From assembly GCA_009746045.1 (NCBI GenBank), contig RPFO01000296.1, forward strand, positions 717,739-781,738: DNA of 64,000 bases, read 5' to 3'. Below, piece after piece: positions 14,621 through 62,772 of this stretch. A model generated the notes under the pieces. It saw only the letters and a list, made by a program, of their open reading frames with translations. It did not search any database and was not told the origin of the DNA. Positions within the stretch are counted from its first letter, which is position 1. Each line of letters starts with the position of its first letter. The position numbers were made by a program, and so were the translations under genes. The DNA comes from Mesostigma viride. Its lineage: Eukaryota; Streptophyta; Mesostigmatophyceae; Mesostigmatales; Mesostigmataceae.

Positions 14621-14629
14621 ACCTACCCT

Positions 14630-17577: not shown

Positions 17578-17597
17578 CCAGACAAGCTGCACTGCCC

Positions 17598-18062: not shown

Positions 18063-18277
18063 AGCTACGTTTAATAGCACCTAGACGAGGGCAGGGGGCG
18101 CAGGCACACTGATCACGTGCGTGGTGCCGCCATAATGTGCAGAAAAATAGCGAGATCTGCTGGGCAGGCCGCTGGCGATAACTTGCGAAATCCTGGGCGA
18201 TGGCTGCCAAAAATTAGATCGGCGTGTTCGTCATCAAAAGGCGAGTCTATTGCAATTTACCCGACCAAATTTCATCA

Positions 18278-18620: not shown

Positions 18621-18627
18621 ATGTTCT

Positions 18628-19952
18628 TAATTAATTAATTAATTAATTAATTAAGTAGCTTCCATCATCATTCCGTCATCATTCCGTCATCGCGGCTCAC
18701 AGAAGGGCACCAGCCTTATGCTGGCATCTGCCACCCCTATAGTGACCCTATAGTGACCGCGGCCTAGGGTGGGGTATCACCCTAAACCCTAAACCCTAAA
18801 CCCTAAACCCTAAACCCTAAACCCTAAACCCTAACACTGTCTCCAGACACCCACGGCATCCCCCCACCCTGGCTATCACCCTCCCACTGTGACTAAATTT
18901 ACTAAGTTTACTATGGGTTTTTGGTTTTTTTTCTAGGAAATTCAAGCCAGCTGCCGTGAGGTCAAGGTGCTACAGGTGCCGTGTGGTACAAGGTAGCTAT
19001 AGTGACCTTATAGTGACCATGGTGGTAGACTCTTATGCTGGCATCCCAGGGTGACTAAATTTACTAAGTTTACTATGGGTTTTTGGTTTTTTTTCTAGGA
19101 AATTCAAGCCACCTCCCATCACCCTCGTGGTCATGCAACACACTAGTGGAGAAAGCCTGAGCAGAATTGCTCCGACCCCCTGATACAATGACACTAGTGT
19201 TGCATGTAATTTTAGTTTCCCACGGGAGTAGCTATAGTGACCTTATAGTGACCATGGTGGTAGACTCTTATGCTGGCATCCCAGGGCGACTAAATTTACT
19301 AAGTTTACTATGGGTTTATGGTTTTTTTTCTAGGAAATTCAAGCCACCTGCCATGAGGTCGAAGTGGTGACACAACTGGTTGAGGGCCATGTGGGAGATG
19401 GACTAAGTCATTTCCCGTGGGAAACTACGTTTACTAAGTTTACTATGGGTTTTGGGTTTTATTCCTAGGAAATTAATTCAGGTGTGCACCACCAAAAACA
19501 TGTCTGAATTTCCCAAAAAAAGAACCCCCAAAAAACTTAGTAAATATAGTCTCCCACGACAAATGGTCATGAAAACGTAGTTTCCCACGGCAAAATGACC
19601 AATAAATCCATCTCCCACGGAAAAGGCCATGGGGGCCGGCCAGCGGGGATGCAGCGGAGGGGCGCGGACTGCCAAGCAGTGGCGGGACTGCCAGGTGGTG
19701 GTGATGGGGTGAGGGCTTGCTGTGTTTTCTCGTGGGAAACTATATTTACTACTAAATTGATATTTTCAGTTGGAAATGGAGGTTTTATTCGATGTGAGTG
19801 AGAGTGCATGCACAGGCTTGCATAATTTCCCGCAGACAAAACCCAAAACCTGTAGTTAGCTTAGTAAATTTAGTAAGGTGCTGGAGGGTCGAGCAGTGCG
19901 TGGGAGTTGGCGGACCCGGCGAGGGCCGCGCGGCGGGGTGTGCAGAGTGTCA
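18628..19952 (+). repeat. Left terminal inverted repeat of the viral element
   Basis: About 1.32 kb, reverse complement of 36987-38294 with small indels. From the outside in it contains (TTAA)n, a direct repeat TTCCGTCATCA, a CCCTAAA array, four copies of a block around CTAAATTTACTAAGTTTACT, and several TTTCCC-N2-GGGAAA-like sites. Two units repeating TATAGTGACC and TCTTATGCTGGCATCC are also present. The inner boundary is at TGCAGAGTGTCA (about 19952). Confidence 0.9.
18780..18834 (+). repeat. Telomere-like (CCCTAAA)8 array in the left TIR
   Basis: 55 bp of perfect CCCTAAA heptamers, the plant/algal telomere repeat. The C-rich strand runs inward, the same orientation as at a chromosome left end. 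It lies about 150 bp inside the element terminus and is mirrored at 38100-38148. Confidence 0.95.
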
Positions 19953-20019
19953 CTGGGTCTACACACATCTGGAAACTAAGACGATTGACACGTGAAAAAT
20001 CGTTTCATTAAAATATTAC

Positions 20020-21237
20020 TTACGAAGGGCAATACCGCCATCCAATAAAACAATTCGGCCTGGAACCGTCGCTCAACTTGTACTGAGTCAGCCTGCAGCC
20101 CAGAACCGCCTTTGCCTCGTCTCCAAATAATTTCGCCTTGTAGCTATCCATACCAGTCGAAGCAATGTACTCGTCGAGAAGAACCTTTACAGGCACTGCC
20201 TCTCCGCTGCACTTGACAAGCTCGCCGCTTTTCTTTAGCTCCTCGATAAAGGCACCCACACCATCAGACGAAACCTTCGAGTCCGTCTTCAGGACTCGCA
20301 TCTCCTCCGACCTAGGCGGCCACCTCTCGTCCTTGCTGGTTGCTGCCAGGTATACTACGCACTCTCTAATCGAAATCGCCATCAATCCTAACGCAAACTC
20401 CTTGGCACGCTCGTTCAGTGTGGTGTCCACGAGATGCATGTGCGGACGATCAGGTTCATCGGCCATCTCTTTCCGCGTGCAAAACTTGCTCACGAAAGGG
20501 TACATGACAGCGCGGTCCCACAACCCCTCGCAGTGCTCGTCAAATTTCACGTCGTTGTTTGTGTCCAAAATAAGCTTGAATGACGTGGGAAATTGCACGT
20601 ACTCGTTAGAGTGGAGAGCGCGTGCCTTCAAGACGCCATTGCCTGTGATGTTCTTGAATTTTGATGCCACAATAGGGACGTTGCGCTGGAGCTCGTTCGT
20701 CAAACCGATGCGCATGCCGCGCATTCTCAAAACTTCTGGCGTCGCCACATCACTGTCCCGCTCCTGCGAAGTGTAGAAAGCAGTACGAACGGTGTCCGCA
20801 TTGTCGCCGTATGCCTCTCTGATTACTTTCATCAGGAAGCCCTTCCCGTTCCGTCCTGAACCCTTCCAAAAGTATCCTTGCTCGTCACGATTGTCCCCCA
20901 CCATCAGTGAGCCAAGGAAACGCTTAAAGTGGGCCCGGGTCACCTCGTCTGGGAAAATTTCCTCCAACTTCACTTCCATAGCACAAGTGTCGGCGTCTGG
21001 CGTGTAGGGAATTCTCATCTGCTTGGAAAGCATGTCGTCGGGCCGTCCAGGGCGCAGGGTCATTGTAGTAAGTTCCAGCACCCCGTTAGTGAAGCACAGG
21101 AGGTATGGATTCCGGTCTAGCCGCTCCACGAAGTCCGTTGGCTCGGCGTATATGATCGCCCTGACCTCGTTGCGGATGTAGTTGATGTAAGGACCGTCAC
21201 GCAAGTTGCGAGAGATCTTCGCAGCGGAATCTGCCAA
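20020..21237 (-). CDS. SF3 helicase / D5-like primase-helicase C-terminal part
   Basis: About 405 residues, open from just after a TGA near 21244. It shows the D5_N signature (FTNGVLEL, about residues 49-56), a Walker A of the SF3/P4 type (GSGRNGKG, about 126-133), a motif B region (MRIGLTNELQ, about 175-184) and motif C (LILDTNN, about 222-228), followed by an Arg-finger-like WDRA. This is the replicative helicase of PLVs, virophages and NCLDV-like viruses; it unwinds DNA as a hexamer and is usually fused to an N-terminal primase. Here no ATG precedes the conserved core: the open frame begins with TTG, and upstream codons in the same frame contain stops. The primase part is therefore truncated or frameshifted, or the start is non-canonical. 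Confidence 0.85.
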   Translation of the reverse strand: MADSAAKISRNLRDGPYINYIRNEVRAIIYAEPTDFVERLDRNPYLLCFTNGVLELTTMTLRPGRPDDMLSKQMRIPYTPDADTCAMEVKLEEIFPDEVTRAHFKRFLGSLMVGDNRDEQGYFWKGSGRNGKGFLMKVIREAYGDNADTVRTAFYTSQERDSDVATPEVLRMRGMRIGLTNELQRNVPIVASKFKNITGNGVLKARALHSNEYVQFPTSFKLILDTNNDVKFDEHCEGLWDRAVMYPFVSKFCTRKEMADEPDRPHMHLVDTTLNERAKEFALGLMAISIRECVVYLAATSKDERWPPRSEEMRVLKTDSKVSSDGVGAFIEELKKSGELVKCSGEAVPVKVLLDEYIASTGMDSYKAKLFGDEAKAVLGCRLTQYKLSDGSRPNCFIGWRYCPS

Positions 21238-21244
21238 GGGGAAT

Positions 21245-24200
21245 CAAGTAACGGCCAGCGAGCTTGCTTATCGGTCACCTAGGATTGCTCGCCTTATCAC
21301 GGCCAGCATGCAGGAATAGAGAGCGCTGCCAACCCTCCTGGCAGTGAGGCTTAAACGTGGACTTGTCCGGCATCTACGGAGATGCGTTCCGCAGAGGTTC
21401 GTGCATCATCAGCTGGCCCACCTGTGGTCCCTGAAATTCCACAACGACCCACCCATGTACCCCAAGTTCCGCAGCAAATCCATCCACACAGGCCTCGGCC
21501 TTACACCGCCGATGAGAATTCCAAGTGCGCGAGAACGTATGATGTCGTGGCGTCCTCATGGAAAAGCAGAGACTTCGAGTATGTCGCGGAGAGCGACAAC
21601 TTCGTCGAGAAGTCGCGGAGAGAGAGGAGGGGCAAGCAAGGAAACAGCCACGGTCTCAGATGACGATAGGATGACATCCACACACTGTCATGCCCAAAGA
21701 ACACCATGATGGGGAAAAGGCAGTTCCATGCAGCTGAACATCCCGAAGTCCGTATACATTTGGTGAAACAATGCCGTACGGCGATACGACGAGTAAGTTG
21801 TGCTCCCTGCTCGCGGCCGCTCCGAGCACAAGTGGCTGAAACTGCGCATACGCTACTATTGTGGTCATCGGTACCTCGAGTAAAGTGATGAAGCTCAGCA
21901 GCATATCCAGCGCATTGGATCTTTCCAAATCTCGTGAGATGAAGTATGGTAACCCCGTCCAAACATCTCTACTAACTCAGCCACGATATGCGCGAATGTT
22001 GACAGTGACGTGGCCGACTTCGTCCACTTCCATGGTGCTCTGATGTTCGATCGCTGCTGTGGCGAAAACCCTCTATCGCTATACAGAGGCCCCAACGTCG
22101 ACGCTCCGCCACTCCGCTCGACTTTTTCCTTTTCCTCTGAGAAGCGGAAGACGTCGATCAAGTCGTCGACAAGGCACCCACTTTGCATCGTCGTTCCACC
22201 AATTGAGCGACAACGTTCGATGGCTCGTGTCGTCAACGGGATGAGAGAAATTGGCATCCTGCTCGACGTTCCATTCTGTATATAACACACAGTTCAGCAA
22301 TCTCCTCGTTGTAAATGAATCGTCCCATCGCGGAGCTGCAGAAGTTTGTCCTTCTGAGACCCCATATCCTTCACCGTCACTTTCAACCCTTCACGTACCA
22401 CGAACGAGTACGTTGAACTCCTCTTGCCACTTGTTTCGACCCACACGCGGACGACGCGTGATACTTAAACGTTCTCATGTTGATGTTACAATTTATCGAA
22501 GACGTCACCGTGATGATGTCGTCGACGGTTTGACTCCGGCTTCTCCTTCCTCTCGTGATCGAATTTAGGTCGTAATCGAGATATGGCTGACCAACATCGT
22601 CTTCTTTTTAGAAACCTCGCACCAATGCCGCCAGCCGAATGAGCCCTGAGCGTCTTAGCGGATACTCTAGCACGTATCGTTCCAGTCTTAGATTTAATCC
22701 TCCCGCAGCTTGATCATCTGCGTGATGGGTGGACCGGGAGCCTCCTTGTGGAAGCGCGAGAGTGCGATTTTCGTGGGAGAGTCCGCCTTATTCCCGTGGA
22801 GATCTCCCACGAGGAATCGAACGTTGTCGCTCTGCGGTTACGTTGTCGGATCGACCGTGTCGTCATGCAGGTTGAAGTCGAGGACCATTCTGAAGGTGTA
22901 GTACCGTATGCTTAGAAAAAAAAAAAAAGTGCGATTAAACAAAATTTTCGTTCGTCTAAAAACCACACAGACCTCGACTCGACCCTTGAAAAAATGTCCC
23001 AGAACTTTTTATTTCCGTATTAAATGCATTTGCAGTTTAGATATCCTTTTCGACATTCATGAAAAATTTCCCACGGGAAAACTGTCACTTTTTCCTCGGC
23101 CTCACCGTACGTCCGCCAGTTCGCCGCCCTGAGAGGTCCCCCCCGCCGCTCGTACAACGCTCCTGTAAGTACGTCGCCCATCAAGTCACCCAGCCCATTT
23201 TCCCGCCTTTTTCCACGGCAAAGCGCCCTATCAAGAAAACGTAGCAGGCTTAACTGAGTACGCTCTAGCCTGCGTTCAATTCAATGCCAAGATGTCAATA
23301 CCAGCTGCTCACTTCGCAGACCAATTAACTATCGATGACTTCATGCTATACACGCCGCACTGGATTTGTGGCAGACCCCACTCCAACAGAACACACGATA
23401 ACTTGAACAAATCATCAAGCTCGAGCTCCTCAACGCGATTGAATCGTTACGTTACTTGATCTTACCCGTCTGGAATTTCGAGTAGTCGTTTTAACGTGCC
23501 TACGGTGCTCATGACCTGCTCTTTAAAACGTTACATTATCATGCGCCGCCGCTCGGGAATGTATCCGTCTCTCGTGTGGTTCTCGTGAGCTCGCTTGATA
23601 GACACTGACCGCCGCCACACTTGTCCGTAGTTCGCTACCCTCGTCCCACCGTGATGGGCCGTGCAGTTTCTCGCCGGACAGGTAAATAAGACCCATCAAG
23701 AAGCACGCGTTTCAGAGGTCAGGGGTCCTTCATTAACGTACCTGACGCGCCGGCGATCCCTGGACTGCTCGTACGGTACCTCAGTGGCTTGCTCTTCGGC
23801 CCTGTCGAATTTACCCTGTCGAGATCGCCACCTTCAGTCTCATGGACTCGCGACAGCAGGTACGCGTCACGTCACGTCGCTGGGAGCCTCTTCTCATGTG
23901 CCATCATATCCGATTCCAGCACCGTTTTATCACTCCCAGCAATGTTCATTCTCGCTCTCCCTACACGACAGACTCTCTTATCCGAGTGTGCGAAAAGCCT
24001 TGCTGTTTGAGGAGTTGCCAGAGTTTCGTGGACGACGCGCAGGACACCGGCACGGTGTCGCGAGGCAGTCGATGATTCGTCCTGCGACACCCCATCCTTG
24101 ATCAGAGCGAACCGCAGCCTGACGACGAAGTGTATTTTACCCCTTCCGTTTTGCGCGTCCCCCGCGCTCTCTCGAGCGGCAACCTCCAGGCTCGTATGCT

Positions 24201-27200
24201 CTGGCGGGAATTCCGCCTGCAGCCACCCGCGAACACCGGCCTGCGCTTAAGCATGCAACGCCCAATATTCGCCCTCCCTCAGGTAGTCTCGGCAGGCGGT
24301 TCCTCGTGGCTCGGGGTGAGCTCCCGCAACGGTGGCGTCGGGCTGGAGAGTCGGCGCTGCAGAGACCGATGTTTCCGCCGCACTCGGGGTATTTGCGATC
24401 CATCCGTGCGCTGGGATTCCAGACGCCCTCCTTTTGAGCACTGCCTGTTCGCCGAAGATGCAGTGCGTCTCTGCGCGCACGCCTGTCGGCGGCAGCCGCG
24501 ATTGCTGCGCCTTTTCCCTGGCCCGTCCCATTGCTCGCGACGCTCCTTACGTCACCGTCATCTGATGACTGAACATGAGACAATTTTTTGGTCGAGCTTT
24601 GTATTACCCTACGGGGTGGATCCTTGGCGCCCTCGAGGCCGTTTTCGGTTTCGTTCGTTTTCTTTTGCCAGGTGAGCCCACGTGACGCCTCATCGCCCAC
24701 CCAAGCGAGGATGCCAAGTCGGATTCGGAGGCATGTCGTGACAACGTTGGACGGAATCGTGTCGTAGTGGCCTGCTTCTTTGAAAGGATCACTGACGACA
24801 CTCTCTAGAGTTTTGCCCCAGATCGACAACCCGAACAATATCGGAGGAGTGCTTGGGGTCCAACACGTACTCCTTCTCGCGGCCTGCGTATCGTTTGGTG
24901 ACGGAATAATCCATAGTAACAGTTCAAGAAAATTATTTATCGAGGAAAATGTATGGAAGTTTCGTCGAAACATTTTTTCGGGTCGCCTGGTCGGAAGTCG
25001 ACAGCAAATAAGTCGTGAGATCGGTCCTTGACGCGTGTCCCATAGCCGAAAACTCATCCGGCGCCACAACCCCCGCTCTCTTCCCATCTGTCGCGCGGCT
25101 CGATGGTTCCTTTCGTTTAACAGCGCAAGAAACGATATAATTCGCTCGCACTGCTCCGGTACCGCCAACCGTCGTGTACGCCTTGGCAGGAAAAATCATG
25201 CTCGTGAGGAAGTGTCTGTGTATGAACGCGAAACGCCCGCAAGCGTTTTTCCTAGCAGGCCCTGATAGAGTGCACGCCGCATGTCGGCATCAGATCTCAC
25301 AGATGAGCGATCGAACGGAGCAGACACCTGCGTGCAAACCCTGCGCAGGTTGTATCCCAGTCATTGCATCAAGGCGTAGTAGGCGTACATGAGAGACGGT
25401 CCCATGCAGTTCGGTTTTTTTTCCCATCCACGTCATTCGCGTATTTGAACGTTCCCAGAGCACATTCGAGATCTACGCTTGACCTCTCGTATTTCGTGGA
25501 GTCAGACTTATAGATCAGCGAAGTGCTATCATCCCAACGAGAAGAATGCAGCGTTAGAGCATGCATCTTCCATCGCATAGCTAAGTTCCAGGACCGAGCT
25601 CTCTGTATTTCGTCTTCCGTGGGGCACTCCCTGAAATGAAAGCTGTCGAATGACGTTTACAAAGTAAGCCCTTCGCCATTTGACTGTCCGATGTAGTTTT
25701 CCCAGACCGTCGAGCTCCGCAGAGTTTAAAGTGAAATGAAGACTCGCGTCGGGACATATATCGGTGCTGGACAGAGATCGCATAGTGGGCCTGTATCGGT
25801 TAGCTTTGATCATCTATATCTCAAGATGAAAATCGTCGCGCTGCGATGATAAGCCATTATCACTGAAACATTTAATCGTCCAAGACTAGCAGAGAGACGC
25901 TCGGATGCGCCATGCGCATCTCGCATATGCGTCTATCGCACAGGGGCGGTCGCGTGGCTGTCGAGCTGTCGGTCATTGATCGGTCTTTTTTCCAGGCGGC
26001 TCATCGCCGGTGCGGAGAGTCCGGCTCTGTCTCCTTGGTGCTTGCGACCCCCGTCTTGTTTGGGTGCCTGTCGCGGGTTGAGCGACGGAATCTCACGAGA
26101 AGGCTTCAATCCGCGATTGTTGCGAGCTTCTTGACACTCGAGTTCGACTAGCCTGCCGCCTGAATCTCCAATTCCTTTGCAAGACCTTTTTCGTTATCTC
26201 TCCCCCGTATCTCTCTCATTTGCGTCTCTTCTCTCGTGCGCGCTGTGTCAGCGCGTGCTGGTAAACCATCATTTTGTCGCGAAGGCTTTTTCTGTCAAAC
26301 ATTCAGCGTTGCCCTCGAATAGTCCTGACCATGGCTCAACAAGCCGCTCTTCCCGCCGTCGCGGGGCGAAGTTCGTGGCTTGGTAGCATCAGTTGTGAGT
26401 CTCTGAAGCCTCAGAGGCCATGTATTTCTAAGGTGAGATAAATAAATGTCAGTTTCACTCTAACACATGATAGCAGGACAAGGAAGATAAAGCGCCCGAC
26501 CAAATCTACGCCACCGGGGTTAACCTCCGACCCTGAAATGGAAGGACGTTTTCTAACATCTAACAACTATCAACATAGATGAGAAGCTTTCAAGCCCATT
26601 AGACGTACTTGTCACTTACTTGCATTCGAGCATCCATTCGACTGGAGCACTCTCACGTTGTCGAACGAGACTCAAAAATTTCTACCGAGCAGAGCCGACA
26701 AATGTGCGACTCGAGAAACAACGACGACGAGACCGTCATAAGACGATCCCATTCGGAACTGCTATACAGTCTCGTCTTGATACCGTGGATTAATTCACTA
26801 TTTAAATCAGAGTGACTACTTTATAAGTCGACGATCTTCACGCTAAATGAACCCTTACCTAGTACGGCGCAGATAAGTTGGAGCGACCCCAGGTACCACG
26901 TTCTCCTGATCTTATAAAGGCCCTGAATACGTGCTAGACCCTCTTGGGGCCGCAGAGTCCTGACCCACAAAGCCCGCAATTGGACTACTTCTTTGAACAA
27001 CATCGGCTGCGTAGCAAAATCGACGATAGCAACTTGAACGGGGATTTCGCCCTCCATCTCGAAGACGGACGACACGCATGTCGCACCAAAAACGCGTCAA
27101 CGTCATCAATTACCAGGATTGCGAGTTCCAGGCTGCCCTACAACGTTGACGAAGGGCACGCGAGTGGAATCTGTAGTTTCCTATCGCGGACCTACCACAC

Positions 27201-29369
27201 GACCCGGCCGCACGGGGAGAGCGGTAGTGGACGAGAGGTAGATATCCGTACTTTCGGACTCTTTCTATGTCTCGGCGGATCTCGATTGAACCGGCCTCCT
27301 CTCCGCGTGATGTTAGTTGTCGTTTCGCCACGATTTTCGCGACGGTACCACCGCCCCTTCCAACTAACTGGAGATCCTTCACCATCACCTACTTACTCGC
27401 CATGACGGACGTGCGAATGGTGCCGATGACCCTAGTGAACGCACTCTACTGGAGCAACCAATCCAACCACCGCTAATTGCGCGCTTTACGAGTACCGTAA
27501 AGCAGGGAAACACCCTCAACAGAGTCAGGCGGTCACCCATACAGAAGGCATTACGACCGCCCTTCGCAACCAACGGGCAAGAAATCTCTACAAGACCCCA
27601 TACAGGTACACTACTGAATTCCAACCCACATCACGCCGACCACTCGACATCGGCGGTGATCTCCCCTCTCGCCAAAACGGGGGACCTGCGCGGGGAAAAC
27701 GCTCCTAATCACTCCCAGTCGCCGCGCAGATCCAGTAACATAATATTATGAACTACGAGCATAGATTCTTACAAAACGGAAACTCACCCTCACCTCCTAC
27801 ACCACCCCTAACACGAGGGCTGATGCTACGTTGTTGTCTACAAAAATGAAGCCAACTCGTTCCACTCCTGCATCCCGGACACCCAGTTCTTACTCTCATT
27901 ACCTATAATTCCTGTCTAACTATAGAACTCCGCATCAACCGGGCGTCCTACGCACCCCATACTGTGGGTGTGCGGGAAAGTGTATGACTCCTACTCACCG
28001 GTTTTATCCTTATGTGCGCGAACTGCTCTCTCTCTCCTCTCTCTCTCAGTATCTCAAGGGCTCCCTTTGCGATCTGGGACGTGGTACACAACGACTTTAA
28101 AATCCTATCCGCTAAGCCGTATCGATTCGAGAACTCATGAACAGATCGTAACCCGTAATATGGCACTTCGCCCAAACTCCTCCTGTCTTCTCGAGTGAGA
28201 TCCGTCGGTATGCTACGACGCGCTTCCCCTGCTACGAGCTCTCATCTCTCTCACATCATCTCTCCGCGCTCCCCCTCCCAGTGACCACCCCTGCAAGCAG
28301 ACAGCTCACAATACTTTGACAGCCCCCGAACAAAATTCTTTTGTACAAAAACAAGCCCCTCCCCCCAGGCACCAAGTTCAAATTGTTTTTTTCACCGCCC
28401 ATCGACGCCCCATCCTATCTGTTTTCCCGCCTATATTGGGGCAGCAGATGCCTTCGTCTCCCGTTTGCAGAAACAATTACTATGCCTTTGACGACAGATA
28501 AATATCACCCCGGCCACGACCAATGCCCCCATCAGATTGAGTAGAAATGCGGCTACGACGCATTCGGGTATGCTGCCGTCATCAATCTGCACCATAGTGA
28601 CTATGCACCTCGATCTGCTCTTGACAATCTGTTAACAGTCGAAGGTCTCGAACACCGTTAAACTCATCATGAGACCACAAAAACAGCTACTGCCCCGCGG
28701 TGCTTTCGAAAAAATCGATGGCCAAGGCGGAGCACACGTCTATAATCCAAAACAACTCCTCAAGAACTTAGTGACATGCACTTAAAATCCTCAACACTCG
28801 CTCGCTATCATTTACAACCCATCCTCACAGCACCATTCCTTGACCCGCCTCTAATCCATCCCTCCGACCAGTCTTCCACTGAGCGGAGAGTACCACGGCC
28901 GCGACTAGTCTGCCAATCAACAGCATGACCTACAAGACATACGAGTTCGACTCCTCTCTAAAACACCAAACAACCCCATCCATCGTACACAGCCGCGGAA
29001 GACGTGTTGACTGCGTCACAGGTTCCACCTCGCTCGAGAATTGTAGCACAAAATAGCGTCACCAAAAACCCGTACGGGCTGTGGCGGATAACGGTTAGAG
29101 CTAACAACTCACCGAAGGACGAGTGTCATCCGCACGGTCGTTAAATGCGTCTCCCGCACTGTTCAACATACGCGTGCACATGACAAAATCTGCCGCAAAA
29201 TATATGGATTCTACCAGCCTCGTCACTCCGTACAGAAGTCTTTAGTAAGAACTGATCTTTCAACAACCACAAGTTGAGCAATATCCGTGCTTATCACGCG
29301 CTAGTCGTTGAGAAGCGTGACTGCGGTTTTCTTACAACACAATACTCAAAATCCGCTTCGTACGTTGAA
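21245..29369. other. Unresolved 8 kb of the viral element; decayed or heavily frameshifted genes
   Basis: No frame here matches a known family, which is unusual for a compact virus that elsewhere is almost fully coding. Short coding-like strings do occur: on the minus strand NALDMLLSFITLLEVPMTT (21656-21928) and FEMEGEIPVQVAIVDFATQP (26821-27075); on the plus strand KCARTYDVVASSWKSRDFEY (21382-21663). LAILVIDDVDAF on the minus strand near 27090-27125 resembles a Walker B. The longest frame (minus, 24137-25168) is Arg-rich and low-complexity-like and I do not accept it as a gene. A TTTCCC-AC-GGGAAA site sits at 23067-23080. Confidence 0.5.
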
Positions 29370-30020
29370 TACCCGTGATCATATTTCACTGGTTATCCTC
29401 CAGTACTGTCCTATGATCCATTGGCGACCGTGACGCTTCAGTATTCAGATCACACAGTATCTGGCCCCGAACCCCCGCTTGTATTCTGCTTCTAGCCTAA
29501 GCTACTATTATGGTTCAAGCCTGTCGTCAATTGGCGGCAATCACGGGATGGACGTGGCCCTGTATGAAGATGTCCGAGAAACTAGGCGTATATCGCACAC
29601 GATATTGGAAGCAGATTCTTTGGTCGGTCTGAGGCAGCCCATATACGACTACCCGCTTCCGCAATTTTGGCACGGCGCCCCTGTGGCCGTGATGTCTTTC
29701 CACGACCCGGCCAACAATCGGAACTAACTCTTCCGACCGCGTTGACCAATATCCTTGTCAGGTTAACATTTGATAACAACCCACCAACGATTCTCGACAT
29801 ATCAAACCCATATCGCTTAACGGCTAGCGGCCTGTCCGTCTGGCCGGTAAACGTTATAATTGGCAGCAACTGGAATGTTGTTTCAGGATACGAGGAGGAT
29901 GACGGGGTGTTTGAAATCGCATTGCGGATTCCTCGCATCACCACTGACACGTCAACAAACATAGCGACTCTCTACGGCGTTTTGCAAGTCGCGCGCTGGA
30001 AAAATGGCCGTGTCGACTAA
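29370..30020 (+). pseudogene. Viral hypothetical (probable virion protein), frameshifted
   Basis: Three overlapping plus-strand frames read on from each other: DPLATVTLQYSDHTVSG (about 29415-29465), then from 29479 a frame containing MDVALYEDVRETRR and LRQPIYDYPLPQFWHGAP, then from about 29710 LTNILVRLTFDNNPPTILD to the stop at 30020. The last part is beta-rich and lacks low complexity. It is the first gene of the plus-strand virion block, 47 bp before the zinc-finger gene. I do not recognise a family. At least two single-base frame changes break it. Confidence 0.5.
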
Positions 30021-30040
30021 CAAGACCCTCACTTGGACGT

Positions 30041-30050
30041 TATAAAAATC
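30041..30050 (+). promoter_or_regulatory. TATA-like box before the zinc-finger gene
   Basis: TATAAAAATC lies 18 bp upstream of the ATG at 30068 in the short gap after the previous gene's stop. A similarly AT-rich stretch precedes other virion genes (near 32019-32033, 33541-33567 and 35262-35290). Confidence 0.3.
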
Positions 30051-30067
30051 TATGATTATATGCAGAA

Positions 30068-30570
30068 ATGGCAAGGCGTCAGAAATCAGCACGGCGCCGT
30101 CCTTCAAGTAAAAGGGGAAAACCGAAGCGTAAGGTCGCACCCCAGTCGCAGGTGACCGCTTCATCGACCAACACCATTGTCATCCACAGCGCGCCGGTCC
30201 GAAGAGCGGTGAACAAAGGGAAGGTCGCAGAGGCGCGAGGGTTCAAGGATGCCCTTCTCATGGCGTCAGTGATGGCGAACTCTAGACCGGTCGCGTACCC
30301 CCCATTGTCCGCGTATGCCCAACCGGCCCCTGTCGCGCCGGCTCCCGAACCGTTGTCGTCGATGAAGCAGTGGCGGCACCCCCGGAGCCTGCGGGTGTAC
30401 CTGTCGGGAAACGAGTCCAGGTGGGAGGCGCGAGGTGGAAATGCCCACAACCCGGGTGTAAGAGCACGTTCGCAAACGAAAAAAACCTCCTGCTGCATCT
30501 CAGGAGGGTCCACAACACGGTCGTGGGAATTCCAAAAGAAGGCGCTGAAAAAAATCTCACAGAAGAGTAA
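30068..30570 (+). pseudogene. Basic C2H2 zinc-finger protein, one frameshift
   Basis: The frame starts MARRQKSARRRPSSKRGK, a strongly basic nuclear/nucleic-acid-binding N-terminus. It continues through a Pro/Ala-rich linker and shifts frame near 30350. The second frame carries WKCPQPGCKSTF...LLLHLRRVH, a single C-x4-C-x12-H-x4-H zinc finger (about 30436-30510), and ends LTEE at 30570. With the frame change it would be about 167 residues. It could be a viral DNA-packaging or transcription factor; PLVs often carry small zinc-finger proteins, but I cannot name this one. It is followed 2 bp later by the next ATG. Confidence 0.6.
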
Positions 30571-30572
30571 AC

Positions 30573-30839
30573 ATGAGCAGCCCGCTGTTCACTGACGCCG
30601 AGATGCTCGAGATCTCTCAATGGATGACCCTCCATCCAAATGTCCCACGAGAGTTCATTGAGGCAGCCATGCTCTACTGTAAGAAGAAGCCACTCACAGG
30701 GAAGACAAGGCGCGCCATGAAAAGGGCATCGGCGAAAATTGAGGAGGGCGTCGTCAAGGTTTTTGGGACAAACGAAATTACTTCTGAGCTATTGTCAGAA
30801 GAAGTGGCCGATGAAAGGAGTTCATCCAGGAAACGCTGA
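30573..30839 (+). CDS. Viral hypothetical protein, 88 aa
   Basis: Intact frame starting MSSPLFTDAEMLEISQWM and ending in a basic RSSSRKR tail. It is predicted mostly helical, with a Lys/Arg-rich middle (KKKPLTGKTRRAMKRAS). It starts 2 bp after the zinc-finger gene stop and overlaps the ATG (30811) of the next gene. Tight packing and intact coding support a real gene. The function is unknown; size and charge would suit a small virion or DNA-binding protein. Confidence 0.65.
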   Translation: MSSPLFTDAEMLEISQWMTLHPNVPREFIEAAMLYCKKKPLTGKTRRAMKRASAKIEEGVVKVFGTNEITSELLSEEVADERSSSRKR

Positions 30840-31672
30840 CACTCACTCTTCGCACGGAGAACCGAACTCGCGGGACGCTAGTGGATCCGGTATGGGACAT
30901 CCCGGCGGGGCTCCTTGACGATTATCACGACGTCGGGCTTACCCTCATGACCATCCCGTTTGAACAGACTCACATCAGCGAAGGAAACCGATACTTCACT
31001 GTCCGTTTGTCTGGCAGCGAGTCCCCTACGAAGGTGACCTTGCCGCTCGGCTCGTACACGACTATCGAAAACCGAAAAAACATAGAGGACTTTGAAGGCG
31101 GTAGATCCTGGGTTCTCGGTCACGTACAACAGGGCGACTAGTCTTTTTACCGTGACAAATGCCACCGAGTTCTCTGTCGCGGTGGATGAGCCCACGGGCC
31201 GGGTGTTGGGGCTCATGGAAGGATCATATCCTTTCACAGGTGTCCTCGCTAGCAACCGGCCAGCAACGAATGGGAGACTGAGAATGGTGTATGTATACAG
31301 CGACATCGTTCGAGGAAACGTGATATCATCGTCGACAGGCACGGGATATGGAGGCCTTTTGGCCGTCTGTCCCAACATGTCGCAGTTCTTAGAACCCATT
31401 GTTTGGCAGGCAGCGACCCTTTGTGGCAGCATCTCAAGGACTCTCCCAGCAACATCACGATCCGACTGCTCGACGAGGACGACGCTCCTATAACTGTCTA
31501 CTCGGATTGGGCTCTTCAGCTCTCCTTCCGCATAAGCCCTCAGAAGGCGATGGGAATAGAGGCGAGGAAGATCGGGAGCGTTTTGAAGTATATGGCCCTT
31601 GACAGGACCGTCCAGCCACAAACCAGATTTATTTCTCAGCCATCTAGTACTATCGAGGACGATGAAAGTTAA
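30811..31672 (+). pseudogene. Candidate minor capsid (penton-like) protein, frameshifted
   Basis: The gene is spread over three frames. After the ATG at 30811 one base must be skipped to reach ETLTLTLRTENRTRGTLVDP and WDIPAGLLDDYHDVGL. The frame changes again near 31090 (GFSVTYNRATSLFTVTNATE) and near 31410, ending with NITIRLLDEDDAPITVYSDW and DES at 31672. The protein of about 287 residues would be beta-rich. The closing RLLDEDDAPI...DWALQLSF pattern recurs in small virion proteins of PLV-like elements; minor capsid is an inference. The stop overlaps the ATG of the next gene. Confidence 0.5.
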
Positions 31673-32018
31673 TTTTGGAGCAATCGGAAACGTGGCTAGA
31701 CGCGTGGGAGAGTTTGCCGGCAACGCTATCAAGAGGGTCGGCGACGGGGCGGCCATCGTGTCAGCTGTCAAGAAAGCCGGGCACGTCGCTGGCGAAGTCA
31801 TCTCAAAAATTGGCGACGGGGCGCGGGCTGCCAAACAGGCGGCGGGCATTGTCGATTCCGCGCTCGGACACATCCCATCCAACATGATCGCGAAGAGTAC
31901 GCTGCTCGGGAAAGCGTACTCGGTCGCAAACACTGGTCTGAGCGCCTTGTCCAACCTCGAAAGACGGGTTGATGGAGCGAAGGTAAAAAATCCCATACTC
32001 GGCCAGCTTCTTCAGTAA
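31662..32018 (+). CDS. Small amphipathic Gly/Ala-rich viral protein, 118 aa
   Basis: Intact frame starting MKVNFGAIGNVARRVGEF. It is built of amphipathic helices rich in Ala, Gly, Val and Lys/Arg (IKRVGDGAAIVSAVKKAGHV), with no Cys. The ATG at 31662 overlaps the stop of the preceding gene (31672), and the major capsid gene starts about 30 bp downstream. Position next to capsid genes and composition recall membrane-active or core proteins such as adenovirus VI, but that is an analogy only. It might alternatively be a packaging cofactor. Confidence 0.6.
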   Translation: MKVNFGAIGNVARRVGEFAGNAIKRVGDGAAIVSAVKKAGHVAGEVISKIGDGARAAKQAAGIVDSALGHIPSNMIAKSTLLGKAYSVANTGLSALSNLERRVDGAKVKNPILGQLLQ

Positions 32019-32048
32019 AAATATCTCATTCGAATGTATACACAATCT

Positions 32049-33361
32049 ATGGCTTCGGACAATTCCTGGTACTCGCGCGCTATCCCCAAGTCCATGCAAT
32101 ACCTCGTGAAGGCGCTGGGTCAGCAACACGACTCAACGAGTCCATCTCAGCACCCTCTCAGCAAGCGACGGCATCAAACAAGGGTCTGTGGTCGCGGTCC
32201 GCCTCCCCACGTCCGGGTTCGTGGACTTGCACTCCTTCGCAATGTTTTTCACGGGGACCCCCACGACCACGGCGGGGTTCGCAAAGTTCCCCGCGTACAC
32301 GTCCTCCATCATCAGGCGCCTCGAGGTACTGGCAGGAGGTCAGACCGTCGACAGCATCAACGACTACTCCCAGCTGTTCCATACGCTGCTCTCGGTGCAC
32401 GGCGGTGTCGAGTACAATCTCGCGCAGGCTCCCGCTGGTTGGTCGAAGAATAACAACATCGTCATTGCTGATGCGGCTGGCGCTCTCACAAACAACGTGA
32501 AGGCAAACACCGCAGTGGACGGCGTCATTGACCACTTTTTTTTTCCTGGAGCGAGGAGCCTCGGATCGTGGATCTGAGTCTCTTCCCTCCCATCGAGATC
32601 CGAATCACACTCATGGACGGAGGGGTGATGCTTCCTAGCGTGGCGCAAGCAGCTGCTGGTGCCGTCGTGGCCGTTGACGCAGGAACGGGGGTTGGTTTCG
32701 AATTGAGCAACATCCACTTTAGCATCGACACGTACAGGTTCCAAGAGGATATCGTGGGCCAGATTTTCTCGTCCAGGCTTGCCGAGGGTGGAACTCTTTC
32801 ATTCAAGTGGCGAACGTGGCAGTCTACCAAACAGTCGCTCGGGACTCGTTCTCCCTATATGCCATCAAGGCGTCGCTGTCTTCCGCGTCCGCCAGCAAAC
32901 TCCTGGCGATTCAGGTTGCTGCCGGCGCGGACGTGACCAACGCATCTGGCAATACGATGTTCAATCACATCGCGGATGGTATGACTTCCTACCAATACGA
33001 CATCAACGGATCCAACCTGGCGCCTGGATACCGTACGAACGCAACGGAGGCGTGGATCAATCTGTTGTCTGCGTTCGGTGACCAAGGGAATGTTTTGTCC
33101 TGTGTCCGTGAGGGCATGACTCCTACCACGTGGCTAAACAACAACTTCACGATGGCGTGTCACCTTAATATGCCATGTGCCGGTCCAGAGTACATGAGCG
33201 GCCTTGACCTTCGTGGCACGGCATCGGTGGTCACGCTGCGAGTCGAGAAGGGAGCAACGGACTGTATTTCCTACCTCTTCACGGAATGCGAATCGAAGAT
33301 GGACATCTTGCTGCAGGCAGGCAGGCAGCCGTGTACCTCTAAAAAATATATACGTGTGTAA
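32049..33361 (+). pseudogene. MCP: Major capsid protein (double jelly roll type), frameshifted
   Basis: The start MASDNSWYSRAIPKSMQYLV is at 32049 (an in-frame ATG also occurs at 32034). Frame changes occur near 32120, near 32540 (at an eight-T run) and near 32795. The segments read FVDLHSFAMFFTGTPTT, then SSIIRRLEVLAGGQTVDSIN and YSQLFHTLL, then SLFPPIEIRITLMDGGVMLP, then VYQTVARDSFSLY, ending at 33361. Total length is about 435 residues. The RRLEV-x-x-GGQTVDSIN-x-YSQLF region matches the conserved N-terminal jelly roll of PLV/virophage-type major capsid proteins. This forms the icosahedral shell. No in-frame stops besides the frame changes were seen. Confidence 0.75.
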
Positions 33362-33370
33362 TGACAAACG

Positions 33371-33541
33371 ATGGACTACTTTCGAGACCCTAGCATCACA
33401 GCTAATCCGTTTAACAGGTTGAAGTTGATTTTTGACATTCCTGAAATGGCAGATTCTGGTCTGTCCATGACAATGCCAGCTAGACGAGCATTGCCCCTTC
33501 TCCCCACCTTCAAGTATCCGCTACCAAACTCTAAAAAATAA
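33371..33541 (+). CDS. Small viral protein, 56 aa
   Basis: An intact frame nine bases after the capsid gene: starts MDYFRDPSITANPFNRL and ends PLPNSKK then TAA. It contains a Pro-rich tail and no repeats. It is short, but its position in the tight gap between capsid and spike genes and its ATG support it. Function unknown. Confidence 0.5.
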   Translation: MDYFRDPSITANPFNRLKLIFDIPEMADSGLSMTMPARRALPLLPTFKYPLPNSKK

Positions 33542-33567
33542 TGTGACGATGATATTATATTAGCTCC

Positions 33568-35258
33568 ATGTCGTTTGATTATGGTATTTGTCCTGCTTTG
33601 ATTCGCAAGAAGCGCAAACCGGCAAGGACAGCGCCGTCAATCACGTTAACAACTACACACGGACTGTATCCTAGCGCGGTACCGATTACAATGACAGCAG
33701 CATTCAGCGAAACAGTCACCGGGTTCACCTTGGGTGATATCGTTGTCATAAATGGTACTGCATCTGGTTTAACGGGTAGCGGCGCCTCTTACACATTCTC
33801 TGTGACTCCAGCTGTAGCTTATTCACTGACAACAGTCACTGTTGGAGGGAACGCAGCAAGCAGCGTGCTAGGAACCGGCAACACCGCAGCAACTCCGTTA
33901 GTCTTCACGTATTCGCCACCTCCAACGGTAACCCTCGCGACGACCGCGGGCTTGACGCCATCCTCATCACCCGTGGACGTGACAGCCACGTTCAGCAGGT
34001 CGGTGACGGGGTTCGCGTTGGGCGATATCACCGTGACCAACGGGACCGCCGCCAACCTGACCGGAAGTGGGGCGTCGTACGCCTTCCAAGTGACGCCAAC
34101 CATCGCCAATTCTACCACAAACGTTAGCGTTGGCGCGGGCGCTGTTGTGGACGCATCGACAGGAACGCCAACGCGGCATCTAACACACTGTCGTTCACGT
34201 ACTCGGCAAATCCGTCGGTGACTCTTGCGTCCGGAACTCCGACGGGTGCTGTTTATCCGATCACGGCCACTTTTAGCACATCGGTCACTGGGTTCACGTT
34301 GGGCGACATCGCCGTGACCAACGGAACCGTGTCCAACTTGCTGGGAAGCGGTGCCACGTACACATTCGATGTGACCACTACCATGTCGGACTTCACGACG
34401 ACGGTAAGCGTGGGCGCGGGCGCCGTGACGGGCGCAACGTCAGGGCTTGGAAATGCATCATCCAACACGCTGTCATTCACGTACTATTACAACCCGGCAA
34501 CAGACCCAGCGTTGTTTGCGTGGTACGACCCGTCAGACAGCGCCACGGTGTTCAGCGACGCGTCGGGCACAACCCAGCAAAACACGGCAGGAGGGAACGT
34601 GATGCGCGTGAAAGACAAGGGACCGAATGGGTACCACGTGACACAGGCCACTTCCACCAAGTGTCCTACGCTGGATGCGGCGGAGCTTAACTCGAAACGG
34701 TCCCTCCGCTTTATCAACTCGCGGTCTGGCTTGTTAGCGTCCGTGAGCAATTTCTGGAGCGCGATTGGGGTCAGTGCGAGCATCCTCCTAGTCGCCAAAC
34801 AGCTAACGACTGCAACGTATCCAGAAATAGGGGGTTATACGGGTATTAGAGGTTATATGCTTGGATCGACGGATGGCAATGGTTATCTCATGTCTTATCA
34901 GTCAGAGGTACAGACCGTTCTCCTATTCGCTCCCGGTACTGTATACGAAACCGTGAGCACCAGGGCTCAGTTCTTTGACAACAAGGCACACGTCATGGCG
35001 ATTTCATGCAACAGCAGTACAAACGCACTTTTCACCCGCTTCGACGGAAGAGCTGGTTATAACAGAATCGGATCGGACCCTACAACTGGTTCAGGAAATC
35101 TCGCTATTGGAGGAGACTCATCCAACGCGAGTCGTGCCTTTGACGGGTGGATCGGCGAGATCCTTATCTACAACACAGCCAAGACGTCAGCGGAACTTGA
35201 ACGGATCCGCGGGTATCTTGTTGCCAAGTGGGGCACTCCCGCCGCCATCCCAGCGTAG
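33568..35258 (+). pseudogene. Spike/fibre-like protein: Ig-like repeats plus ConA/LamG-like domain, one frameshift
   Basis: Starts MSFDYGICPALIRKK and reads through two Ig-like repeats, then changes frame near 34163 and continues through a third repeat into a ConA-like domain ending at 35258 (about 563 residues). Each repeat of ~85 residues follows VTxATxxG...VTGFxLGDIxVTNGTxxxLxGSGAxYTF. The C-terminal part has WYDPSDSATVF, RVKDKGPNGYH and DGWIGEILIYN, typical of the ConA-like lectin/LamG fold found on phage and giant-virus surface proteins. The architecture suggests a receptor- or glycan-binding spike. The Ig repeats share long identical stretches at protein level, so recombination or slippage between them is likely. 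Only one frame change interrupts it. Confidence 0.75.
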
Positions 35259-35291
35259 AAATATTATCTCGTATAATTTTGCAATAAAGCA

Positions 35292-35801
35292 ATGGAATAC
35301 CCCACCTATTACCAAATAGTGCTAGATTCCAATGCCTCTGAAAACATGATTGACTCCACCACCGGGTTACGTCAATTTAGAATCAAACCAGACCCGAGGG
35401 CGCCCATCATTGACAGTACATGGCGTGGTGGTGTGCATTATGCCTACGTTGACGCAGTACCTTTTGATGAGGACCATGCTATTGTCGGGCTTGTTTCCAC
35501 GAGTTTCTCCGGTGGTGAGCATAACCAACAGGATTGCATTGTTTTATGCACAGAGACTGTCATGGGTGGATCAGACGGGGACATCTTTTCTTACGCCATG
35601 ATCAACGAACACGCGTTTTTTAACCTAAAGAACCCACACCTGTTTAGAAACGGAGGACATATTACGGTAGGAGCGTCGTACATTGACAGACTTGACGTAA
35701 ACGAGACTCAATTCCCCCCGTTGCAGACGGACGGTTTTTTGTGCATCCTACGTTTTGAAAAGATTCGCGGGTTCAATAAGTGCAATTGTCATGGCAAGTA
35801 A
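35292..35801 (+). CDS. Viral protein, 169 aa, candidate single-jelly-roll minor capsid
   Basis: Intact frame starting MEYPTYYQIVLDSNASEN. It is beta-rich with repeated short strands (FRIKPDPRAPIIDSTWRGG, AIVGLVSTSF) and lacks low complexity. The N-terminal pattern of residues around N-x-x-x-T-x-x-F-x-I followed by W-x-G resembles small jelly-roll or penton proteins of PLVs and virophages, and the length suits a single jelly roll. The assignment is tentative. The last codons overlap the ATG of the next gene at 35791. Confidence 0.55.
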   Translation: MEYPTYYQIVLDSNASENMIDSTTGLRQFRIKPDPRAPIIDSTWRGGVHYAYVDAVPFDEDHAIVGLVSTSFSGGEHNQQDCIVLCTETVMGGSDGDIFSYAMINEHAFFNLKNPHLFRNGGHITVGASYIDRLDVNETQFPPLQTDGFLCILRFEKIRGFNKCNCHGK

Positions 35802-35994
35802 TTTCTACGAATTATACATGGGTGGGTGCTTTGGAAAATTTACCTGCGTGGATACCTTAGAAACCTCGTTCAGGCGATTGACAAGTGACCCAGTTGATTA
35901 CTCGCATGCTTACGAGTCTTTTTACCTAAATTCACGTCCCAGAACTCGCCACGTGGTAGAGGCCACCTTAGACTTGCATCGCTCCGAAATTTAG
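35791..35994 (+). CDS. Small viral protein, 67 aa
   Basis: Intact frame starting MASNFYELYMGGCFGKF, overlapping the end of the preceding gene by 11 bp (ATGGCAAGTAA). Aromatic-rich N-terminus and a charged C-terminal half (RTRHVVEATLDLHRSEI). No family recognised; the overlap makes a translationally coupled or co-evolved gene pair plausible. Confidence 0.5.
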   Translation: MASNFYELYMGGCFGKFTCVDTLETSFRRLTSDPVDYSHAYESFYLNSRPRTRHVVEATLDLHRSEI

Positions 35995-36144
35995 CCAAGT
36001 TCGACACTTGTACAAGTCCAGCCACCTTCGCGTCCTGTCCAGGCCGTGCCAGCAGACGTAACGGACCTTGGCACATTGTGCACAAATAGGCAAAATCACG
36101 TGCAAGTCACGCATCTCACGTTAACAAGCTCTCTGCCGGTAGCC

Positions 36145-36717
36145 ATGGCTTCCCGAAACGCAGGGCCTTGCGAGAAGGCGTTGGCAATGCTTGGAAAAAT
36201 CCTCGATGGTCTCGAGGACGGCCAGACAAAGATATCTGACCAGCTCGCACACCTGACGCACAAGGTCTCCCTTCTTTCCGGAAACGAAGGTGCTGTTGGA
36301 GGCATCGGACCTACCTGCGAGGTATTCAAGATTCACGACGCCGGATATGACGATGTCGACCGCAAGACGCCAAAAATTTGCGTCGAGTGGGTCTACGAGA
36401 GGAACGCGGCAAGGCCGAAGAAGGTCGAGGACCGCTGCGAGTGGATTCGCCTCGACCAAGCCGACGGGTGCGTTAAGATGGTTGACGATTTCCTCAATGG
36501 CTTCTCCAAGTCCAAGCGCCAGCCAGGCATTTCCCCCATTGCCCTCTACAAGGCATGGGAGGAGGCAAAGAAGGGTTTCGAGGACGCAAAGACCGCCACT
36601 TCCAATGGCAGGAAGAGGAGCCGCGAGGGAGCGTCAAGCTCCCACGGCCATGGCGACAAGAAGAACTCCGCCTCGTACGTGAAGAGCCTGACTGGACACT
36701 CCAAGGACAAGGAGTAG
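36145..36717 (+). CDS. Viral hypothetical protein, 190 aa
   Basis: The ATG at 36145 (MASRNAGPCEKALAMLGK) is preferred; the frame is open upstream to a GTG at 36046. An N-terminal helical, coiled-coil-like region (ILDGLEDGQTKISDQLAHL) is followed by a mixed domain with Cys residues and WVYERNAARP, then a Lys/Arg/Ser-rich tail (NGRKRSREGASSS) that looks like a nuclear localisation or DNA-binding tail. It is the last gene before the right TIR and is intact. No family recognised. Confidence 0.6.
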   Translation: MASRNAGPCEKALAMLGKILDGLEDGQTKISDQLAHLTHKVSLLSGNEGAVGGIGPTCEVFKIHDAGYDDVDRKTPKICVEWVYERNAARPKKVEDRCEWIRLDQADGCVKMVDDFLNGFSKSKRQPGISPIALYKAWEEAKKGFEDAKTATSNGRKRSREGASSSHGHGDKKNSASYVKSLTGHSKDKE

Positions 36718-36986
36718 ATTGTCGTCTTGTTGACGACGGCAACGAGCTTGCCATTTCGCTCTTGTCGAGCTGATAACGAATGTAAACGTGTTATATATTT
36801 TAATGAATTCGTTTATGCAGTATAAAACGCGTCAATGTATGCTGAAAACAATTTTCATTTCGTCTCGAATTGCAGTTCTAACTGCGGGTTTAAAAAGTAG
36901 AGTAAACCTCTCATGCATCGACGCAGGTCGTATGGGATTCTTGCATAGGTCGTCTGAGTTTCCAGAGGTTACACAGAGTAATAAAA
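36718..36986. other. AT-rich spacer before the right TIR
   Basis: No gene seen; short frames only. Confidence 0.5.
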
Positions 36987-38294
36987 TGACACTCTGCACA
37001 CCCGCCGCGCGGCCCTCGCCGGGTCCGCCAACTCCCACGCACTGCTCGACCCTCCAGCACCTTACTAAATTTACTAAGCTAACTACAGGTTTTGGGTTTT
37101 GTCTGCGGGAAATTATGCAAGCCTGTGCATGCACTCTCACTCACATCGAATAAAACCTCCATTTCCAACTGAAAATATCAATTTAGTAGTAAATATAGTT
37201 TCCCACGAGAAAACACAGCAAGCCCTCACCCCATCACCACCACCTGGCAGTCCCGCCACTGCTTGGCAGTCCGCGCCCCTCCTGCATCCCCGCTGGCCGG
37301 CCCCATGGCCTTTTCCGTGGGAGATGGATTTATTGGTCATTTTGCCGTGGGAAACTACGTTTTCATGACCATTTGTCGTGGGAGACTATATTTACTAAGT
37401 TTTTTGGGGGTTCTTTTTTTGGGAAATTCAGACATGTTTTTGGTGGTGCACACCTGAATTAATTTCCTAGGAATAAAACCCAAAACCCATAGTAAACTTA
37501 GTAAACGTAGTTTCCCACGGGAAATGACTTAGTCCATCTCCCACATGGCCCTCAACCAGTTGTGTCACCACTTCGACCTCATGGCAGGTGGCTTGAATTT
37601 CCTAGAAAAAAACCATAAACCCATAGTAAACTTAGTAAATTTAGTCGCCCTGGGATGCCAGCATAAGAGTCTACCACCATGGTCACTATAAGGTCACTAT
37701 AGCTACTCCCGTGGGAAACTAAAATTACATGCAACACTAGTGTCATTGTATCAGGGGGTCGGAGCAATTCTGCTCAGGCTTTCTCCACTAGTGTGTTGCA
37801 TGACCACGAGGGTGATGGGAGGTGGCTTGAATTTCCTAGAAAAAAAACCAAAAACCCATAGTAAACTTAGTAAATTTAGTCACCCTGGGATGCCAGCATA
37901 AGAGTCTACCACCATGGTCACTATAAGGTCACTATAGCTACCTTGTACCACACGGCACCTGTAGCACCTTGACCTCACGGCAGCTGGCTTGAATTTCCTA
38001 GAAAAAAAACCAAAAACCCATAGTAAACTTAGTAAATTTAGTCACAGTGGGAGGGTGATAGCCAGGGTGGGGGGATGCCGTGGGTGTCTGGAGACAGTGT
38101 TAGGGTTTAGGGTTTAGGGTTTAGGGTTTAGGGTTTAGGGTTTAGGGTGATACCCCACCCTAGGCCGCGGTCACTATAGGGTCACTATAGGGGTGGCAGA
38201 TGCCAGCATAAGGCTGGTGCCCTTCTGTGAGCCGCGATGACGGAATGATGACGGAATGATGATGGAAGCTACTTAATTAATTAATTAATTAATG
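36987..38294 (-). repeat. Right terminal inverted repeat of the viral element
   Basis: Reverse complement of 18628-19952, about 1.31 kb, with small indels (for example one telomeric heptamer fewer). The outer end is TAGCTACTTAATTAATTAAT at about 38268-38294. Confidence 0.9.
38100..38148 (-). repeat. Telomere-like (TTTAGGG)7 array in the right TIR
   Basis: 49 bp of perfect TTTAGGG, G-rich strand running outward, mirror image of 18780-18834. Confidence 0.95.
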
Positions 38295-48966: not shown

Positions 48967-48969
48967 GTT

Positions 48970-62608: not shown

Positions 62609-62772
<164 letters not shown>

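Follow-up and report, generated by a model that had tools for sequence, protein, structure and literature searches.

The window analyzed here (the whole stretch of DNA, 64 kb) contains at positions 18634–38293 an endogenous Polinton-like virus (PLV) of ~19 kb, which is present in many genomic copies in an alga-like host. This reading is supported by terminal inverted repeats (TIRs), a primase-helicase, a double-jelly-roll capsid protein and a weakly matching A32-like ATPase, and also by five further loci at which copies are paired. The joint claim, that this is an endogenous PLV in a nuclear genome and that it comes from a large, recently active family, is in our view very probably correct, and means that an alga-like genome houses one more PLV family with many copies and recent activity.

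Layout of the element and its copies in the host genome

Within the window, a left TIR (18634–19952, plus strand, its first bases lying inside a TTAA tract) and a right TIR that pairs with it (36987–38293, minus strand) enclose a primase-helicase of the D5 type and, on the plus strand, a module of virion genes. A preliminary description of this DNA had proposed long TIRs of ~1.3 kb, and the alignment of the left TIR with the reverse complement of the right one agrees with this, as all 1307 aligned columns match (1307/1307, 0 substitutions) and the only differences are five indels. The concern raised there, that repeats and interior might not form one element, is countered by the same layout in other copies. 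In the 440 Mb host genome the TIR was scored at 40 places and the capsid gene gave 158 matches. Six inverted TIR pairs, the one in the window included, span 18.5–19.7 kb with TIRs of ~1.3 kb, within the range of PLVs (14–40 kb, long TIRs), and at all six loci the paired TIRs are virtually identical and joined to host TTAA tracts.

Near-identical copies of the element occupy different loci. Elements of this kind misassemble readily, which would suit a free viral genome that was mis-joined to host contigs and never integrated, but this is highly unlikely given that the flanks of the six paired elements differ, that the two flanks of the window recur in contigs C543 and C851, and that several other element flanks contain repeats present elsewhere in the window.

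The corrupted block and the gene content

The period-3 coding signal is clear at 19.9–21.4 kb and in most intervals across ~30.7–37 kb, and weak or absent at 21.4–30 kb. The signal missing from this middle part, together with capsid, penton and spike genes that are split over several frames, could point to a decayed, pseudogenised element whose middle degenerated by mutation. Against such decay, which we regard as very unlikely and rejected for the middle, stands the excess of indels over substitutions: in the first-compared part of the block, the window differs from a clean copy by 555 extra and 209 missing bases (764 in total) vs. 74 mismatches. Moreover, the block edges are sharp, with the sequence immediately outside being 99–100% identical to other copies, and contig C543, which has the left flank of the window in common, is clean in the piece read (1201/1201 positions identical to a distant copy within the same stretch). 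The coding desert at ~21.24–29.50 kb (block at 21240–29495, with indels like those of raw long reads) and the truncated helicase resulting from it are thus an artefact of assembly from uncorrected long reads and not decay. We also rejected a foreign insertion of large size, as over this stretch the distant clean copy has viral-type genes, namely those for the primase part, for a frame that may be a tyrosine recombinase, for the A32-like ATPase and for a protein of 921 aa. The preliminary description had suggested a possible distinct lineage from several genes considered unassignable, in part because of this 8.3 kb block of sequencing errors. A coding desert inside an endogenous virus can therefore be due to sequencing errors alone, and surveys that count ‘degraded’ endogenous viruses would be misled by it.

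The genes next to the left TIR lie on the minus strand. The C-terminal D5/SF3 helicase part of the primase-helicase (20020–21243) matches Pfam D5_N (E 1.1e-13), a PHROG primase (E 6.8e-49) and the solved primase C962R (E 2.9e-14), so that the SF3 helicase proposed earlier holds; its frame is truncated because the error block begins there. The frame is longer in several other copies, on one of which NCBIfam TIGR01613 was found with E 8.4e-25, below its cut-off. The primase part (21406–22911, placed by alignment) is corrupt here and an open frame in copy C1952, and Herpes_UL52 primase was matched with E 7.6e-6 on L079:8-1357. It is followed by a 438-aa frame (23088–24608, corrupt here; L079:1536-2849), a possible tyrosine recombinase, in which an R/K/R/GH/Y signature was read by eye that we take to be of the tyrosine recombinase type; profile, sequence (including PDB) and fold searches gave no match for this frame, and its predicted fold (pLDDT 44.4) had no PDB match with E < 1e-3. 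Integrases, either tyrosine recombinases or rve, are found in many but not all PLVs. The A32-like packaging ATPase (24940–25871, corrupt here, 296 aa in C1952) is weakly matched by Pox_A32 in the frame L087 (E 3.9e-4, 20.4 bits vs. a cut-off of 22.8), and contains GARRSGKT and LILIDD, read as Walker A and B. A 135-aa frame without match (25875–26295) is also corrupt here.

The TIRs, the capsid genes and the many genomic copies would equally be expected of a Maverick/Polinton proper, with pPolB and a retroviral-type integrase. This is extremely unlikely, since no PolB or rve integrase was found in the frames scanned with Pfam (a subset of all frames), the replication gene is a primase-helicase, and there is no target duplication beyond the TTAA tract, the only sequence shared by the flanks of paired elements, which could mask a 5–6 bp duplication.

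The compact plus-strand virion module noted before is real, and in another copy it starts earlier, at the equivalent of ~26.4 kb. Its first member is a 921-aa frame without match (26446–29497, corrupt here; L080:1131-3893), considered a large virion protein by position only, followed by a frame without match that has 214 aa in C1952 (29396–30042) and a basic protein (30056–30592), whose frame in C1952 has the same N-terminus and extends into a weak C2H2 finger (below cut-offs). The product of 30720–31669 is a probable minor capsid (penton) protein, presumably so from its position, where PLVs would be expected to have it; it is fragmented here, forms one 317-aa frame without profile match in copy C1768, and the sequence L088 is 99.46% identical to positions 30715–31813 of the window. 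Between penton and capsid, an amphipathic protein (31587–32018, 139 aa from the start codon) weakly matches phrog_31167 (E 8.8e-4), a family of unknown function.

The major capsid gene (32019–33361) is divided into four frames here, while in many other copies it is one open frame of ~440 aa. The product models as a double jelly roll: the model of one intact copy, of low confidence, aligns to double-jelly-roll capsid proteins in the fold comparison, in agreement with the capsid-like protein suggested before. PDB sequence searches with the capsid found no relative, and a match with E 1.5e-4 to 23 residues of an engineered repeat protein was taken as chance. The element had been described as PLV or virophage-like; the PLV part is upheld by TIRs, genes and copies, whereas with virophages (Maveriviricetes) only the fold and gene types are in common. 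A virophage in place of a PLV is very improbable, as the best rows of the capsid fold comparison were not virophages and the top viral match came from a PLV-group virus (grouping according to the accessible part of PMC4642659), and as no maturation protease was found in the frames scanned with Pfam (a subset of all frames). Single-protein scans and a capsid-alignment scan, an approach that detects mostly close relatives, found none in the viral contig collection.

Downstream of the capsid, the spike (33553–35258, one frame change) consists of Big_12 Ig-like repeats (E 2.2e-20 and 5.3e-8) and a Laminin_G_3 lectin domain (E 9.1e-7). The module continues with a 169-aa protein (35277–35801, counted from the start codon) and a protein of 223–240 aa with a basic C-terminus (35995–36717, similar frames in other copies), both without match.

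Telomere-type repeats and TTAA insertion sites

Both TIRs hold a (CCCTAAA)n array (left 18779–18834, plus strand; right 38100–38148, minus strand), located ~150 bases from the TIR tip and in telomere orientation at both ends, i.e., with the C-rich strand inward, like that of a chromosome end. In every TIR locus read (30/30) there are 3–11 perfect CCCTAAA units in this orientation, with at least five in 25/30, and the unit number is equal at both ends in 5/6 paired elements. The left TIR also has two 127-nt direct repeats (18993–19354, plus strand, 97.6%) that belong to a set of iterated motifs. CCCTAAA is probably the host's own telomere repeat, the host type being judged from contig C1468. 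A green alga may be the host, judging from TTTAGGG and from a DEG-type protease.

The element is bordered by host tracts of (TTAA)7 on the left (18627–18654) and (TTAA)5 on the right (38273–38292), and tracts of at least three units adjoin 28/29 of the outer element ends read. The number of TTAA units is unequal between the two ends of the element and the TIRs are equal, so we read the tract as the target and not as part of the element.

We propose that the element would replicate as a linear genome through its own primase-helicase, with its TIRs copied from one another, that the A32-like ATPase would package this genome into a capsid with a lectin-type spike, and that the possible tyrosine recombinase would join the element to TTAA tracts. 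A function of the telomere-type array, by which the virus might borrow the host telomere machinery for protecting or maintaining an extrachromosomal linear genome and insert at TTAA tracts upon integration, is conceivable but rather unlikely. In the literature searched, which included few subscription papers, no such end maintenance is described for PLVs, and we found no report of PLVs or virophages whose TIRs contain telomere repeats, nor of microsatellite targets. The two features are concrete and checkable, and bear on how PLVs maintain linear ends and choose insertion sites.

Comparison with known systems

Herpesviruses such as HHV-6, which are unrelated, have linear genomes with telomere repeats of the host type close to their ends, in which they resemble the present element; the latter, in contrast, integrates at TTAA tracts and not at telomeres. 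The PLVs of the PgVV/Gezel and TVS groups are described in the accessible parts of PMC4642659 and PMC10675990 as ~20 kb genomes with long TIRs, MCP, mCP and packaging ATPase, some with AEP primase and SF3 helicase and some with Yrec, integrated in many copies in algal genomes. Size, long TIRs, the capsid and replication genes and multi-copy integration in an alga-like genome are in common, and the penton, ATPase and recombinase genes may be, whereas telomere-type repeats in the TIRs and insertion at TTAA tracts are features of the present element that those parts of the two papers do not mention. Cryptophyte PLV expansions comprise hundreds of complete TIR-bearing copies, with YREC elements mostly lacking target duplications and with Laminin_G_3 fibre domains occurring (PMC12220804, accessible part). 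The present element resembles them as a multi-copy TIR element with Laminin_G_3, but its spike joins Big_12 repeats to the lectin domain and its TIRs hold telomere-type repeats, while telomeres are mentioned in the accessible text of that paper for assembly only. The endogenous mavirus-like virophages of Cafeteria are likewise bounded by TIRs in a protist genome; according to the accessible part of PMC8547959, however, their integration is not sequence-specific and produces short target duplications, in contrast to the preference for TTAA tracts found here.

Terminal repeats, copies and insertion sites

The 1.3 kb inverted repeats that the preliminary description had placed at 18628-38294 were confirmed, with arms at 18634-19952 and 36987-38293 that showed no substitutions and five indels over 1307 aligned columns. 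The terminal inverted repeats (TIRs) contain iterated motifs, among them 127-nt direct repeats, as well as a CCCTAAA array; CCCTAAACCCTAAA was found nowhere in the 64 kb window besides the TIR arrays, and 100 shuffles also gave 0. When the host genome (439.9 Mb, 2243 contigs) was searched with the left TIR, at least 171 aligned pieces were recovered (40 of 478 candidates scored). Among the 40 places scored, 23 were full or near-full length at 93–100% identity and 17 were partial, and 12 of the 23 formed six inverted pairs, a lower bound: the window (19,660 bp) and contigs C1535 (18,910 bp), C113 (18,465 bp), C1768 (19,306 bp), C1 (19,285 bp), and C1107 (19,055 bp). The two TIRs of one element differed at 0/1278 positions in the window and at 1/1290, 0/1287, 0/1290, 0/1289, and 5/1281 in the other five pairs, while left TIRs from nine loci, including the likely second haplotype of the window, differed by 0–3% in 36 pairwise comparisons.

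Capsid genes were located inside the TIR pairs of C1535, C1768, and C1107, and a match to the window interior inside those of C113 and C1. As such matches recur between other TIR pairs, repeats and interior belong together as one element, against the case raised earlier that they might not. A piece of the capsid-like gene described previously (32723-33358) had at least 158 matches in the host genome (150 of 594 candidates scored); those listed had 57–100% identity and many had open frames near 440 aa without a stop.

Four further capsid genes (loci L081-L084 on C1710, C1579, C224, and C1) had single open frames with 69–72% identity to the window family and appear to represent PLV lineages of this genome that are sister to it. 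D5-type helicases (PF19263, set G000) were present at 76 places, with frames reaching 845 aa; no DNA match to the window was found at the eight fetched loci (L001-L008), and the set probably belongs to other viral or mobile families. At L038 (C1591:1397398-1400877), a capsid gene directly adjoins a stretch that matches window 47864-49108 at 97.9% identity and may be a retroelement inserted into the viral element.

The number of TTAA units outside the two ends differed in all six pairs (7/5, 3/4, 9/4, 5/3, 4/3, 3/1), while CCCTAAA counts were equal in five (7/7, 7/7, 9/9, 5/5, 5/5; window 7/6); the TTAA tract therefore behaves like the target sequence of the host, and the CCCTAAA array like a component of the element. 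On L039-L068 (L062, which has no anchor, was left out), 28 of the 29 ends read adjoined at least three TTAA units, although not all ends are independent, as some contigs have flanks in common. The exception, the right end on C1107, had one TTAA unit with another TTAATTAA a few bases beyond.

Element-free TTAA tracts are also found at 5445 and 46636 of the window. Host repeats at 38799-38963, 46639-46804, and 5437-5614 have a TTAA tract at one edge, and their relatives flank several element insertions. Elsewhere in the window, 551 bp direct repeats (1327-1877 and 7373-7923, 99.3% identity, 6 kb apart) are possibly the LTRs of a retroelement, and exon-like frames at 52518-56174 (−), which we take to encode a DEG/HtrA-type protease, probably represent a gene of the host, of the type seen in the green lineage. 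Tandem arrays were observed at 61989-62609 (8-bp unit × 77.6), 14612-15866 (50-bp unit × 25.1), and, 1.1 kb left of the element, 16893-17486 (152-bp unit × 3.9 with 32-bp subrepeats).

The telomere-type array

Fourteen ends of seven large contigs were inspected, one of which was N throughout. Among the 13 readable ends, that of C1468 contained 35 copies of CCCTAAA within 250 bases of its start, and no CCCTAAA array was found at the other 12; TTTAGGG is thus likely the host telomere repeat. The largest contig (C1, 14.3 Mb) had a short TAGGGG array, not TTTAGGG, at its far end (L090), which would be either a repeat that arose by chance or a variant type of chromosome end. Relative to the tip, the TIR arrays are oriented like the array of C1468, and perfect units were present in 30 of 30 TIR loci (3–11 units, at least 5 in 25). 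We consider a functional role unlikely, since an array captured by chance and then copied with the TIRs would look no different. None of the literature searches made turned up PLV TIRs with host telomere repeats.

Gene content and the error-rich middle

The SF3 helicase reported initially proved to be the C-terminal portion of a primase-helicase of D5 type at 20020-21243 (−) (D5_N, E 1.1e-13; PHROG DNA primase, E 6.8e-49; solved primase C962R, E 2.9e-14). In the plus-strand virion module that the preliminary description had also noted, domain matches at 33553-35258 (+) comprised Big_12 Ig-like repeats and a Laminin_G_3 domain. The period-3 signal was strong at 19.9–21.4 kb and over most of the stretch between about 30.7 and 37 kb; in the gap separating them it was weak or missing.

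This middle (21400-29400) had 76–78% identity to other copies over the longest pieces (30 of 333 candidates scored; in the best match among them, 7,634 bases of the window aligned to 7,058 of the copy), compared with about 91–99% in most loci for the TIR, helicase, and capsid regions. Aligned to C1952, a distant copy with a clean middle, its first part agrees at 3218 positions and differs at 74, with a further 555 bases inserted (270 runs) and 209 deleted (184 runs). Insertions outnumber deletions and substitutions are few, as is typical of raw long reads from the presumed sequencing platform. The block is sharply bounded, near 21.24 kb on one side and 29.495 kb on the other, and identity directly beyond these edges is 99–100%. 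Contig C543 matches the window over 17155-21466 (96.9%) and, as it shares 1.5 kb of the left flank, is probably a second haplotype or duplicate of this site; a 1.2 kb piece of its interior was identical to C1952, a different locus, at 1201/1201 positions, and had 80% identity with 95 gap openings to the window. Given the indel pattern, the sharp edges, and the clean C543 piece, the block is very probably an assembly artefact and does not imply that the element has decayed or lacks a set of genes. Protist assemblies with false fragmentation of this kind are described in the available text of Bellas et al. (PMC10120064). Frame changes, either errors or lesions, also affect the capsid, penton, and spike genes of the window outside the block, with open frames present in other copies.

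Block genes were read as frames of C1952, their window positions being set by alignment. They comprise a primase part (Herpes_UL52, E 7.6e-6) whose frame overlaps that of the helicase part and which may form one protein with it, a 296-aa A32-like packaging ATPase candidate (Pox_A32, E 3.9e-4, below gathering score), a 438-aa putative tyrosine recombinase, a 135-aa frame, and plus-strand frames of 921 and 214 aa without matches in searches. For the 438-aa frame, we assume a tyrosine recombinase from the family signature R...K...R...GH...Y, spotted by eye; profile, sequence, and fold searches gave no support (the fold model was poor). A 317-aa frame in the copy on C1768 is presumably the penton, based on its position.

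Proposed cycle and comparison with known PLVs

The element has matched TIRs, junctions at TTAA tracts, and replication and capsid genes, and has spread recently. In each cycle, one TIR would serve as template for the other, the putative recombinase would join the element to TTAATTAA-type sites, and the progeny would be packaged in a predicted double-jelly-roll capsid with a lectin spike. From the initial proposal of a PLV or virophage that would form a distinct lineage, the PLV half holds, because size, TIRs, modelled capsid fold, primase-helicase, and candidate A32-like ATPase group the element with PLVs as described in the available text of PMC4642659. The absence of a visible target duplication resembles the YREC-type PLVs, as far as these are covered in the accessible part of PMC12220804. 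The portions available of PMC10675990 and PMC12220804 describe large populations of endogenous PLVs from green algae and cryptophytes, which makes the class an ordinary one.
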